A stretch of 64,000 bases of DNA. Origin: Symplocastrum torsivum CPER-KK1 (GTDB lineage Bacteria > Cyanobacteriota > Cyanobacteriia > Cyanobacteriales > Coleofasciculaceae). The stretch lies in contig JAHHIF010000023.1 of the NCBI GenBank assembly GCA_019358875.1, forward strand, positions 1 to 64,000. Reading direction: 5' to 3'. The notes below the pieces were generated by a model, which saw nothing but the letters and a program-made list of their open reading frames with translations, did no database searches and was not told the DNA's origin. Below, one piece after another: positions 48,871 through 64,000 of the stretch. The translations under genes were made by a program, and so were the position numbers. Numbering within the stretch: the first letter of the stretch is position 1; every line of letters starts with the position of its first letter.

Positions 48871-48885
48871 TTTACTTTACTTTAC
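48871..48885. repeat. TTTACTTTACTTTAC motif
   Basis: Reverse complement GTAAAGTAAAGTAAA resembles the operator-like sites upstream of the XRE-Clp_N-Uma2 gene (63338-63353, 63360-63375). It sits in the gap between the AMIN gene and the pentapeptide-repeat gene, where the rest (48775-49172) shows no gene. Confidence 0.35.
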
Positions 48886-49172
48886 ATTTTTTAAAAGAAC
48901 AGCCAAGATATATCTAGATACCTTGCAAGTATTTTTCATTACCTAAATCTCAGTCCTCATTTGCGTAAATTAACTGAATGAAGTGAGATTGCCGCCATTG
49001 AGCTTAGGCTCAATCGCGACAGAGATACGTTTTTCATTAATCCCACTAACTACTTCGTACAGCCTCGCTGCATCTACTTATCTCGCTGCACGTTGTAGAG
49101 CGTCTAAGCCTCATTCAGGTGGCGCTAGTTTTTTTGAAAACAATTAAACTGCCAAAAATCTCAAACACAAAT

Positions 49173-52460: not shown

Positions 52461-54497
52461 TTAACCCAACAACTCTTTAGCCTTTGCTACCACGTTATCT
52501 ACCGTGAAGCCGAACTTCTCCATGCAGACTGGGCCAGGAGCGGAAGCACCAAAGGTGTCAATGCTGACTGAGACTCCCTCACTGCCAGTGTATTTACTCC
52601 AGCCAAAGCTAGTGCCTGCTTCCACCGAAACTCGCTTGGTTACAGCTTTGGGCAGTACGGATTCCCGATAGTCTGCATCCTGAGCTTCAAACAACTCCCA
52701 ACAGGGCATTGAAACGACCCGTACTTTTTTGCCCTCACCACGCAACTGCTCTGCTGCTTTGACACAGAGTTGGGTTTCGCTACCTGTCCCAATCAGAATA
52801 AGATCAGGCGTACCATCGCTATCTGACAGGATATAAGCGCCTTTTGCTACACCCTCAATAGAGGTATTGGGAAGATTGGGCTGTGCTAGCCGAGAGAGAG
52901 CTAGGAGTGAAGGCAGTGTCTTATTACCGAATTTCATTCCCCTAGCCGTCTCAATCGCCACCTTGTATGCCCCGGATGTTTCATTGCCATCAGCAGGGCG
53001 AATTACCAGCAAGTCGGGAATCGCTCGTAGAGAGGCAATATGTTCAATCGGTTGGTGTGTCGGACCATCTTCGCCGAGCTGGATTGAGTCGTGAGTCATC
53101 ACATAGATGACACCCGCTTCAGACAAAGCAGAGAGGCGAATCGCCGCTCGCATATAGTCGGTAAACACCAAGAAGGTAGCGCAGTAAGGAATCAGCCCCG
53201 ATCCATCCAAAGCAAGACCGTTGCAGATGGCTCCCATACCATGCTCACGCACTCCAAAGCGGAGGTTGCGATGTTCGTATTGATCCTTTTGGAAGTCTCC
53301 GGGGAAAGTCTTCAGATAGGTATTGTTGGAAGGAGCTAAGTCAGCAGAACCACCGATGAGTTCTGGGAGAACGCCAGCTAGAGCATTGAGGACTTTACCT
53401 GATTGGACGCGGGTAGCTTCCCCCTTGTCCTCTGGTGTGTAGGTCGGCAGAACCGAATCCCAACCCTCTGGGAGTATAGCCTCATGCATCCGGTGTAGTT
53501 CGGCGGCTTCTTGAGGATATTTCTCCTTGTAACGATCAAACAGTTGATTCCACTCTTCTTCTATTTTTGCTCCGCGATCGATCGCTTTGCGCCAGTGATT
53601 AAAAGCATCTTCTGGAATAACAAATGGCTCGTATTCCCAACCCAAGTTCTTGCGTGTAGCCTCTACTTCTGCGGCACCGAGGGCGGCACCGTGGGCATCA
53701 TGGCTATCAGCTTTATTGGGTGAACCATAGCCGATTGTTGTGCGAACCTTAATTAAAGAAGGCTTGTCGGTGACCGATTTGGCTGTTTCGATGGCTTTAT
53801 GAATTGCCTCCAGGTCGGTGTTGCCATCTTCTACAACCAGGACGTGCCAGCCGTAAGCTTCATACCGCTTACCAACATCTTCTGTGAATGCTAGGTCGGT
53901 GGAACCGTCGATGGAAATATGATTGTCATCGTAGAGGGCAATCAGCTTGCCTAGCCCCAAGTGTCCAGCTAGGGAACAGGCTTCGCTGGTTACGCCTTCC
54001 ATGTTGCAACCATCACCTACGATGACGTAGGTATAGTGGTCTATGACTGGGAAATCGGGTTTATTAAATTTGGCTGCCAAGTGAGCTTCAGCCATTGCAA
54101 TTCCAACACCATTGGCAAGCCCTTGACCCAAAGGTCCGGTTGTAATCTCGACCCCAGGATTCATGAAGTTTTCTGGGTGACCAGGGGTTTTTGACTCCCA
54201 TTGGCGGAATTGCTTGAGGTCTTCGAGGGTAAGATCCTCGTAGCCAGTCAGGTAGAGCAGTGCATACTGCAACATACTGCCATGCCCCGCAGACAGCAAG
54301 AAGCGATCGCGATTCAACCAGGCAGGATTTTTTGGATTAAACCGCATAAAGCGATCCCACAGCACGAATGACATCGGTGCTGCGCCCATTGGCAGCCCTG
54401 GATGACCTGATTTCGCCTTCTCTACCGCGTCAATTGCTAAAAAGCGGATGGAGTTGATGCACAGTTCTTCGAGAGATTGTTGGGTTGCAACGGCCAT
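52461..54497 (-). CDS. tkt: transketolase
   Basis: A thiamine-diphosphate enzyme of the Calvin and pentose-phosphate pathways. 678 residues, normal length. Motifs: [58 protein letters not shown] (cofactor site), [21 protein letters not shown], and [17 protein letters not shown]. It ends the order acpP-fabF-tkt that I recall from many cyanobacteria. The 289-bp gap to fabF contains a palindromic element, so it may have its own promoter. Confidence 0.97.
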
Positions 54498-60190: not shown

Positions 60191-60835
60191 ATGGATAATC
60201 ACTCTTGGTTAACGCTGTTGCAACAGCAGCGAGCGATCGCAGTCATTCGAGCATCTCGCCAGTCTCTAGGGGTTCAAATGGCTAAGGCAGTGGTGGCAGG
60301 TGGGATGTCGGTAATAGAAATTACTTGGAATAGCGATCGCGCGGCTGAATTAATTAGTCAATTGCGCTTGGAACTACCAACTTGCATCATCGGAACAGGT
60401 ACTTTATTAACTCAAGTACAATTACAACAAGCGATTGAAGCTGGGGCACAGTTTCTCTTTACCCCTCACGTAGACACGGCTTTAATTACGGCTGCTGTGG
60501 ATGCAGGTATTCCAATTGTTCCAGGCGCACTTTCCCCTACAGAAATTGTTACAGCTTGGCAAGCTGGCGCTAGCTGTATCAAGGTTTTCCCGATTGAGGC
60601 GGTAGGAGGAGCAAATTATATTAAAAGTTTGCAAGGACCATTAGGTCAGATTCCTCTAATTCCTACGGGTGGGGTTACGCTAGAAAATGCCAAGGAGTTT
60701 ATTACAGCCGGAGCCGTTGCTGTTGGTCTTTCTGGAGAGTTGTTTCCCAAGCCGTTAGTTGTTGCTGAAGAGTGGGAGGCGATCGCACAACGAGCAAACA
60801 CTTTAAGACAACACTTAGGAGTCCTACACACATAA
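60191..60835 (+). CDS. eda: KDPG/KHG aldolase
   Basis: A class I aldolase splitting 2-keto-3-deoxy-6-phosphogluconate into pyruvate and glyceraldehyde 3-phosphate (Entner-Doudoroff), and often 4-hydroxy-2-oxoglutarate. 214 residues, normal length. The Schiff-base Lys lies in ASCIKVFPIEAVGG, the general-base Glu in VIEITWNSDRA, with IGTGTLL and IPTGGVTLENA for phosphate binding. No edd gene is nearby, so the pathway cannot be judged complete from this window. Confidence 0.95.
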   Translation: MDNHSWLTLLQQQRAIAVIRASRQSLGVQMAKAVVAGGMSVIEITWNSDRAAELISQLRLELPTCIIGTGTLLTQVQLQQAIEAGAQFLFTPHVDTALITAAVDAGIPIVPGALSPTEIVTAWQAGASCIKVFPIEAVGGANYIKSLQGPLGQIPLIPTGGVTLENAKEFITAGAVAVGLSGELFPKPLVVAEEWEAIAQRANTLRQHLGVLHT

Positions 60836-62001: not shown

Positions 62002-63192
62002 CTAATCAAATACAGGTGACCAGAGTTCAGATACAGGAAGTTCCCATTCAGGTAGTAGTTCTGTGAGTGTCAAGGTTTCGCCATTCTTTAGGATAATCCT
62101 CTCACTCCCTTGGCGATCGCAAGTCACAGTCTGCTCATCCGGGTCAATCAGTAAGCCAATTTTTGCTCCTTGCTCCAAGAACAATTGAATTTTGTCTTGG
62201 AGTAAGGATACTCGGTCAAAAGCAGATTTTATTTCCACGACTAGGTCAGGTACCAGTTCAGGATAGGTTCGTGGTATCCGCTTCAAGCGTTCTCGTGAGA
62301 TGAATGCAAGGCGGGTAACCAAAACGTCTCCATTCGGTAGCGCAAAACCTGTTTGATGAACCACCCGCCCCAATTGCCGTGGTTCAATCCAAGACACTAA
62401 GCGGGTACTCAAACGGACACTAATTTCACCAGAAGTAAAGTCTGCTGGGCGTTCTGCCTCAGATGACTCACTACTTACAGCCCAGTTAAACCGACTCGTC
62501 CTCATTAGAACTGATGGTTCCTCTCGAAGAGGCTGTTGTAGTTGTTCAAGAACCTGTTGTTCCAAATCCTGAAGGTTGATGCCAAGGTTCTTGAGGACAG
62601 CCGTTGATACGCCATCTTTTTCGCGAATTAGACCCAAAAGAATATGCTCTGTGTCAATTTCATCATGGCTCAACCGCTTTACTGCCTCTGAGGCAAGTTT
62701 GAGAACCTGCTTTGCTCTGGGAGTCAAGGGTCTTTGCCTATCCAAAAGTGTTGAACCGTAGCCGATAATTTTCTGCACTTCCACTTGCGCCTTCCAGAGG
62801 TCTACCCCCATCGACTGGAGAAGCTGAGCAGAAAAGCTTGTTCGTTCACTGAGCAGTCCCAGCAGAATCTGTTCAGTGCCGACAAAGTTATGCCTCAAGC
62901 GTTTTGACTCATTTTGGGCTAGCCTTAGCACTTCGATCGCTTTTTCGCTAAGTCCTTCAAAGCTCTTTTCTTGGGGGAATCTTCTGGCGAACATAGACCT
63001 TTGCTCCAGAATGAATATTTTTTCAACAGGGCAGTTAAAAAGTTCAGCAATTTTGAAGGCGAGGGGAAGGCTGGGGTCAGATTTCCCCGTTTCCAGCGCA
63101 TTGACCGTTTGACGGCTGACATCTAAACGTTCTGCCAAGTTCGCCTGAGACCAATTCCGTTCAGTTCTAAGAACACGTAGACGGTTTTTCAT
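62002..63192 (-). CDS. XRE repressor, Clp_N domain and Uma2 nuclease fusion
   Basis: 396 residues with three parts. 1-62 is an XRE helix-turn-helix (WSQANLAERLDVSRQTVNAL, ETGKSDPSLPLAFKIAELF). 79-218 closely matches the double Clp_N repeat of ClpC (HNFVGTEQILLGLL and IDTEHILLGLIREKDGVSTA), but no AAA+ module follows. About 245-392 is Uma2, with PD-(D/E)XK residues D316, E320, K322 in VPDLVVEIKSAFDR. The ClpC N-domain normally binds substrates or adaptors such as ClpS; here it may sense misfolded protein or block ClpC. Two operator-like sites lie upstream (63338-63375). A paralogous XRE-alone ancestor is likely. The function is not known. Confidence 0.9.
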   Translation of the reverse strand: MKNRLRVLRTERNWSQANLAERLDVSRQTVNALETGKSDPSLPLAFKIAELFNCPVEKIFILEQRSMFARRFPQEKSFEGLSEKAIEVLRLAQNESKRLRHNFVGTEQILLGLLSERTSFSAQLLQSMGVDLWKAQVEVQKIIGYGSTLLDRQRPLTPRAKQVLKLASEAVKRLSHDEIDTEHILLGLIREKDGVSTAVLKNLGINLQDLEQQVLEQLQQPLREEPSVLMRTSRFNWAVSSESSEAERPADFTSGEISVRLSTRLVSWIEPRQLGRVVHQTGFALPNGDVLVTRLAFISRERLKRIPRTYPELVPDLVVEIKSAFDRVSLLQDKIQLFLEQGAKIGLLIDPDEQTVTCDRQGSERIILKNGETLTLTELLPEWELPVSELWSPVFD

Positions 63193-63248
63193 TCTTGGAA
63201 AACTGATTCATCAACGTCGCTCTATCTAGAAAATAGGTGAGAGGGGAC

Positions 63249-63292
63249 AGGTAGTAGGTGGTAGGTGGTAAGGATTTTCATCGCAATGCTAG
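63249..63292 (+). repeat. heptad array with conserved tail (copy 3)
   Basis: GGTAGTAGGTGGTAGGTGGT heptads are followed by AAGGATTTTCATCGCAATGC and TAGTG, matching copies at 3216-3262 and 16818-16881. It lies within the 5' region of the XRE-Clp_N-Uma2 gene, between its operator-like sites and start codon. Confidence 0.75.
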
Positions 63293-63337
63293 TGAACGCA
63301 GCGCATAGGCGACTGTCTTGATACGAGCCGTCGATTG

Positions 63338-63375
63338 GTAAAGTAAAGCTTACAAGCAAGTAAAGTAAACTTTAC
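63338..63375. promoter_or_regulatory. paired operator-like sites
   Basis: GTAAAGTAAAGCTTAC (63338-63353) and GTAAAGTAAACTTTAC (63360-63375) match at 14 of 16 positions, and their starts are 22 bp apart, about two helical turns. The second site is centred on AAAGTAAA-C-TTTACTTT (63362-63378), a perfect inverted repeat. They lie 146-183 bp upstream of the XRE-type gene at 63192 and may be its own operators. Confidence 0.6.
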
Positions 63376-63549
63376 TTTTTTAGAGTATAGCAGTTCTTCC
63401 AAAGGATGAAATACCCTCATGTGGGTTAGGAGAGACTATTGCTGTAAATTTCACAATTATTTGGCACTTATTCTTCAGCAGGAGAAGAGGCAAGTTAACC
63501 GTAGCTCGTTTTTGCGCTGTTGCTCTGCACGTACCTGATTCAATTCCAG

Positions 63550-64000
63550 TTAGTGCTGCAATAGAGGTAAAAAAGCACTAACAAACATGGCAGCCTGAGT
63601 GCGATCGCGCAAATTTAACTGACTCAAAATCCTGGTAATGTGGTTTTTGACCGTTCGTTCTGAAATGTAGAGCGCTTCTGCAATCTCCCGATTACTCGCA
63701 CCTGTAGCAATGAGGCACAGCACCTCTCGTTCTCTAGCCGTCAGTCCTGTGAGTTCTGGGGGAAGCTGGGTAGGCTGGGGTGGAGTTAAGGGTGGAGTGT
63801 GAGCGATCGCTTTTTCCATTAATCCTGGACCCATTTGGGTGTAGCCTTTATGAACGGCTCGAATGGCTCCTGCTAAGTCATCGGAATGAGTGTCTTTTAG
63901 CAGATACCCTCGCGCCCCTAATTGCATGGCTTGCGAGACATAATCATCGTCGTCAAATGTCGTCAGCACTAACACTTTGGTTGCGCTAAATTGCTGACAA
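63550..64000 (-). CDS. NarL/FixJ-family response regulator, partial
   Basis: The start lies beyond the right edge. 150 codons are visible: the last part of a receiver (VLTTFDDDDYVSQAMQLGARG, YLLKDTHSDDLAGAIRAVHKG), a Pro-rich linker, then a LuxR-type helix-turn-helix (LTAREREVLCLIATGASNRE, IAEALYISERTVKNHITRIL). The phospho-Asp is off the edge. The frame is open to 64000. A kinase partner would be expected beyond the window. The 357-bp gap before the XRE gene carries the repeats and operator-like sites and nothing else I can call. Confidence 0.92.
   Translation of the reverse strand, partial: CQQFSATKVLVLTTFDDDDYVSQAMQLGARGYLLKDTHSDDLAGAIRAVHKGYTQMGPGLMEKAIAHTPPLTPPQPTQLPPELTGLTAREREVLCLIATGASNREIAEALYISERTVKNHITRILSQLNLRDRTQAAMFVSAFLPLLQH

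Follow-up and report, generated by a model that had tools for sequence, protein, structure and literature searches.

What does the pair of near-identical sites upstream of an XRE-Clp_N-Uma2 fusion gene do, and which protein is likely to read it? The sites lie close to the end of the 64,000-nucleotide stretch of Symplocastrum torsivum CPER-KK1 DNA analyzed here (the window, for short), and the initial annotation of this DNA took them for a paired operator of the repressor type. Conservation upstream of orthologous genes, the tracking of the site with the HTH domain across four protein architectures, and an overlap with promoter elements all support that view. We consider it very likely that the two sites serve as operators through which the fusion gene controls itself, with an HTH homodimer occupying each dyad, RNA polymerase being blocked, and little else coming under control. 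The logic of such autoregulation is ordinary; what is unusual is the fused protein placed under it.

Results

A pair of inverted repeats conserved upstream of the fusion gene

The gene-proximal site, GTAAAGTAAAGCTTAC, occupies positions 63338-63353, and its partner, GTAAAGTAAACTTTAC, occupies 63360-63375. They had been described as 16-bp sequences that differ at two bases and lie 22 bp apart, and both the coordinates and the two differences are exact. From start to start the distance is 22 bp, or 2.1 helical turns. Also present is the perfect 17-bp inverted repeat reported earlier for the second site (63362-63378, AAAGTAAA-C-TTTACTTT), whose core is the 63360-63375 site. The sites are best described as 16-bp inverted repeats of the form GTMAAG-N4-CTTKAC, oriented on the minus strand towards the gene, and the pair stands about 146 bp before the ATG (63192) of the fusion gene. 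The features concerned are the following:

62002-63192, minus strand: target gene and predicted reader, a 396-aa XRE-Clp_N-Uma2 fusion (Pfam domains)
63360-63375, minus strand: O1, putative promoter-distal operator, GTAAAG-TTTA-CTTTAC, a perfect dyad conserved in orthologues
63338-63353, minus strand: O2, putative gene-proximal operator, GTAAGC-TTTA-CTTTAC, with two mismatches, both in its outer half-site; distance to O1, 22 bp

The layout of O2 relative to O1 is repeated in 14 orthologues. Within the window, GTAAAGTAAANNTTAC has six matches at up to two mismatches against 0.50 expected, a number reached in 0 of 100 shuffles, and four of the six fall inside the site cluster. When the motif put forward in the initial annotation, GTAAAGTAAA-NN-TTAC, was scanned across the whole 7.8-Mb genome by pattern search, exact copies were found only at 63338-63353 and 63360-63375.

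Orthologues of the fusion gene were gathered through an order-wide search and from named genomes (Desmonostoc, Nostoc, Komarekiella, Chlorogloeopsis, Calothrix, Hyella, Microseira and others), and dyads were counted in the 200 bp upstream of 19 entries representing 18 distinct genes (L054 and L081 being one and the same). Many of these orthologues are closely related, and the counts must therefore be read as non-independent events: the dyad GTMAAG-N4-CTTKAC is present with at most one mismatch upstream of 17 of the 18 genes and is perfect in 11, against 0.06 and 0.00, respectively, expected from dinucleotide shuffles. The motif thus recurs upstream of orthologues, where the initial annotation had proposed that it be sought. 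A pair spaced 20-22 bp apart precedes 15 of the 18 genes; the nearest orthologue (L045, 70% identical overall) has only two-mismatch sites and no proper pair. When the spacer was lengthened to 5 bp (N5), no site within two mismatches was found upstream of the fusion genes.

The site follows the HTH domain

Genes for HTH-Clp_N proteins that lack Uma2, referred to below as short forms, carry a pair in 16 of 16 cases, made of the same half-sites with an N5 spacer and with 34-35 bp between the members. An N5 operator-like site is also found upstream of an HTH-pentapeptide fusion (L060), with a second one seen by eye in the sequence. At this locus (genome G122, contig 138), the start codon lies near 1500 bases into the minus strand and pentapeptide repeats replace the Clp N-domain.

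A further group consists of HTH-only genes encoding 62-73 aa, with an HTH ~70-85% identical, from Chloroflexota, Caulobacterales, Gemmatimonadota, Latescibacterota and other groups. Upstream of 62 such loci, the N4 dyad occurs with at most one mismatch in 35 and perfectly in 11, and in 0 of 59 downstream control stretches; N5 sites were found at none of the HTH-only loci. Most of the sites are paired, at spacings of ~21, 32, 34 and 43-48 bp. Several of these loci (L090-L153; for example L147, L135 and L102) have a membrane-protein-like reading frame before the HTH gene, and in several the N4 dyad precedes that frame.

Spacer length changes together with the type of HTH. Judging from the alignment and from L060, domains with SRQT[VI]NALE go with N4 and those with SRQ[AS][VI]NGFE go with N5. 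Because the same site stands before HTH-Clp_N, HTH-pentapeptide and HTH-only genes, it follows the HTH domain rather than Clp_N or Uma2, and the HTH with its predicted operator forms a cassette that has been joined to different partner domains. Two other candidates were set aside: a match on an actinobacterial plasmid (H45) with apparent HTH and Clp_N, which spans two separate annotated genes, and NsrX (Alr1976) of Anabaena, an XRE protein whose partner is a metalloprotease and for which no Clp domain is mentioned.

The fusion protein and its neighborhood

The predicted reader is composed of an XRE HTH (residues 1-64; PF01381, E = 8.1e-16), a Clp N-domain of two repeats (78-220; PF02861) and a predicted Uma2 PD-(D/E)XK nuclease domain (247-387; PF05685, E = 1.3e-22, also matching 1wdj); AAA (ATPase) matches are absent from it. 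AlphaFold models the HTH (residues 1-66) with a pLDDT of 92.9, and a fold search with this model returned 9k3w (DR_2454, Z 14.0) and CylR2 (Z 13.2) as the closest among the matches listed. The full-length model is poor (pLDDT 58.7), and no claim about domain arrangement rests on it. Among solved chains, the Clp N-domain is nearest to that of chloroplast ClpC1 (E = 6e-41); its identity to the corresponding region of the genome's own ClpC is ~54%. Among the catalytic residues of Uma2, E320 and K322 are found in 10/10 fusions and D316 in 9/10, the remaining one having E.

The fusion is encoded by a single gene with a convergent downstream neighbor, and a constant neighbor gene, which was sought among orthologous loci, was not found. 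Both the window (60191-60835) and the Nostoc/Komarekiella loci L075, L076 and L089 have a KDPG-aldolase-like gene in the vicinity of the fusion gene, the family assignment by Pfam covering the window gene only; this shared neighbor is a weak sign of vertical descent.

A predicted autoregulated XRE domain joined to a nuclease domain in one unit, with the catalytic positions D/E316, E320 and K322 kept in all ten fusions, could also be read as a toxin-antitoxin-like module on one polypeptide. The HTH would then be an antitoxin-type repressor and Uma2 the toxin, with the Clp N-domain acting as a built-in handle for proteases, and the operators would serve antitoxin autoregulation. We regard this as unlikely given that there is neither a second gene nor a conserved neighbor and that the HTH-Clp_N unit also occurs without Uma2, which implies that the circuit does not need the nuclease. 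A type II toxin-antitoxin system is a two-gene operon with a separate toxin and antitoxin, whereas here a single gene is flanked by convergent or unrelated neighbors. As far as the cis sites themselves are concerned, however, such a module is compatible with an autoregulatory operator pair.

Overlap with the promoter

Among the 15 fusion-gene pairs, 12 have the -35 hexamer TTGACA inside O1, and in all but the window copy (14 pairs) a -10 hexamer TACNNT begins within the end of O2. Pairs 21 bp apart have a -35/-10 spacer of 17 bp; for those 22 bp apart, it is 18 bp. For the short forms, the sequences show 17-18 bp between TTGACA (in O1) and TAAAGT (in O2), so that a pair distance of 34-35 bp does the same job. 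Helical-face cooperativity, which the initial annotation had favored, is probably not what sets the spacing: the 21-22 bp between the sites match a 17- or 18-bp -35/-10 spacer, and a sigma-70 promoter explains this distance more simply than cooperative binding to one face of the helix would.

The corresponding elements at the window copy are these:

63359-63364, minus strand: -35-like hexamer TTTACT in O1, weak (4/6)
63335-63340, minus strand: -10-like hexamer TACCAA over the end of O2, weak (3/6)
63384-63389, minus strand: alternative -10-like hexamer TATACT just upstream of O1, 8/12 when combined with ATTTCA 17 bp away; conservation does not support it

A promoter consensus scan at the window sites found none, and the promoter matches there are the poorest of the 15 orthologous pairs. 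Transcription from TATACT would put the operators at the start site and immediately downstream of it. The leader, counted from the -10, is 142 nt long in the window and 26-68 nt in 14 orthologues, and a later insertion may have lengthened it. The window leader contains a ggtagtaggtggtaggtggtaagg run (63235-63275). With the -35 and -10 so poor and the leader so long, repression at the window copy may use another promoter or be decayed, and this weak promoter is the main weakness of the autoregulatory reading for the window itself. Such features, along with the two mismatches in O2, are what one might expect of a remnant, a decayed copy whose promoter no longer works. Yet the dyad of O1 is perfect, and the gene still has an uninterrupted reading frame of 396 aa in which the HTH and catalytic residues are conserved; decay of this kind strikes us as quite improbable.

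Sites elsewhere in the genome

Exact matches to GTMAAG-N4-CTTKAC occur at two places in the own genome, O1 being one of them, versus three for a reversed-pattern control. Across ten fusion genomes there are 25 exact dyads, 4 of them at the own gene, versus 15 for the control, and fifteen short-form genomes hold 45, 26 of them at the own gene, versus 27. Because the numbers elsewhere are near the control level, these operators probably serve autoregulation without a regulon, the regulator likely controlling little beyond its own gene.

One further sequence had been grouped with the pair in the initial annotation as a possible second target:

48871-48885, plus strand: direct repeat of three TTTAC units, judged unrelated to the site pair

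The sequence TTTACTTTACTTTAC is indeed there, and it is unique in the genome, but its three TTTAC units run head to tail without a dyad and it has three mismatches to GTMAAG-N4-CTTKAC. Relatives searched for conserved DNA upstream of the pentapeptide gene in this region yielded none, nor was a similar site found at the related locus L188, and we have rejected the grouping. A perfect single N4 dyad is located ~105 bp upstream of a dxs gene on contig 14 of the own genome (G000; 53665-53680, L154). This site is probably due to chance, the count being within the control level; dxs was not recognized in the flank of the exact site on contig 9 of genome G002, one of two sites in that genome. These two sequences, one preceding the pentapeptide gene at 49119 and the other dxs, are what would recommend a global regulon in which the motif serves many genes. 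We consider such a regulon very unlikely, with the counts away from the own gene so close to those of the reversed pattern and the 48871 sequence lacking both dyad and conservation. Another diffusible regulator acting on the fusion gene might own the sites; the LuxR-type response regulator encoded directly upstream (63550-63999) is an example, and such proteins do bind inverted repeats. We consider this very unlikely as well, as neighbors are not conserved among orthologous loci, while the site accompanies the HTH gene in several phyla and four architectures, its spacer varying with the HTH subfamily.

Discussion

The genetic arrangement of the locus and its orthologues suggests a simple circuit, in which we infer from sequence comparison that the fusion protein binds at the two sites and represses its own gene. 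A homodimer would engage each 16-bp dyad, GTMAAG-N4-CTTKAC, through the N-terminal XRE HTH. In most orthologues the -35 falls in site 1 and the leading half of the -10 in site 2, so that the bound protein would be expected to block RNA polymerase. The Clp N-domain may sense something that normally engages ClpC, be it a substrate, an adaptor or a peptide toxin, such that repression is lifted as in ClpC2, and the Uma2 domain may be the effector that is made once this happens.

A more speculative possibility, which we raise by analogy and with considerable doubt, is that HTH-Clp_N autorepressors constitute a cyanobacterial form of ClpC2-like surveillance. The Clp N-domain would act as bait for ClpC-attacking peptides or for phage or competitor factors, ligand binding would empty the operators, and the Uma2 form would flood the cell with bait and nuclease, the same HTH and operator being mounted on varied modules. 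According to this idea, the modules would be the HTH alone beside a membrane protein, Clp_N, Clp_N-Uma2 and pentapeptide repeats, and the one-base change in the spacer would mark the HTH subfamily.

Autoregulation of the fusion gene, for its part, supplies the XRE-Clp_N architecture, with or without Uma2, with a concrete predicted operator and the domain that would read it; an experimental study of this architecture was not found in the literature. The occurrence of N4 and N5 spacers on the same half-site also amounts to a two-subfamily natural experiment on how an XRE dimer measures its spacer.

Parts of this arrangement are familiar from known systems. DR_2454 of Deinococcus (9k3w) and CylR2 of Enterococcus (1utx/2xiu) have the HTH fold in common with the fusion, at 66% and 45% identity, respectively, over the whole HTH, but they are stand-alone proteins of 65-66 aa without a Clp N-domain or Uma2. 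The putative nuclease TT1808 (1wdj) matches the C-terminal domain, although in the fusion Uma2 sits behind a DNA-binding domain and a Clp N-domain. As for the mode of prediction, a systematic survey of XRE palindromes is of the same kind as ours: autoregulators and their palindromes were predicted from upstream regions, 223 clusters resulted, and 9 of 10 tested cases bound (PMC12565409).

The closest parallel in logic is mycobacterial ClpC2, an autorepressor and a decoy for cyclomarin, a ligand of ClpC1. ClpC2 sits on pairs of CGTCAAC-n5-GTTGACG that cover the -35/-10 of its own promoter, and cyclomarin, by occupying the Clp N-domain, causes its release (PMC10030653). Its N-terminal part, whose structure was determined de novo, forms a four-helix dimer; the passages cited here do not describe it as an HTH. 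The authors assign DNA contact to the Clp-like domain (PMC10030653), a mechanism that would differ from the HTH reading proposed here. The ClpC2 N-domain structure 8ADA is absent among the matches listed in our HTH fold search, which speaks neither for nor against homology, and the sequence comparison with ClpC2 covered its Clp-like part. At the positions through which ClpC1 contacts cyclomarin (F2, F80 and E89), F78 of the window protein aligns with F2, whereas F80 is replaced by L and E89 by K; among 10 fusions, the F80 position is F in 7 and the E89 position is E or D in 2. ClpC2 has no Uma2 domain, unlike the fusion. On the side of likeness, both proteins join an N-terminal dimerizing domain (predicted for the fusion) to a Clp N-domain, and both have pairs of pseudopalindromes over their own promoter. 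The Clp N-domain of the fusion comes without ATPase domains, as in ClpC2, and two pseudopalindromes over the own -35/-10 are found in the orthologues, the window elements being weak. The operators are also close, the ClpC2 sequence lying near the TGTCAAG-n5-CTTGACA of the cyanobacterial short forms, with half-sites that differ in the sixth base. We draw this analogy at the level of logic, in which the cyanobacterial proteins would work like ClpC2, and claim no membership on their behalf; at that level, it suggests that the ClpC2-style Clp-N-domain autorepressor may not be confined to actinobacteria.
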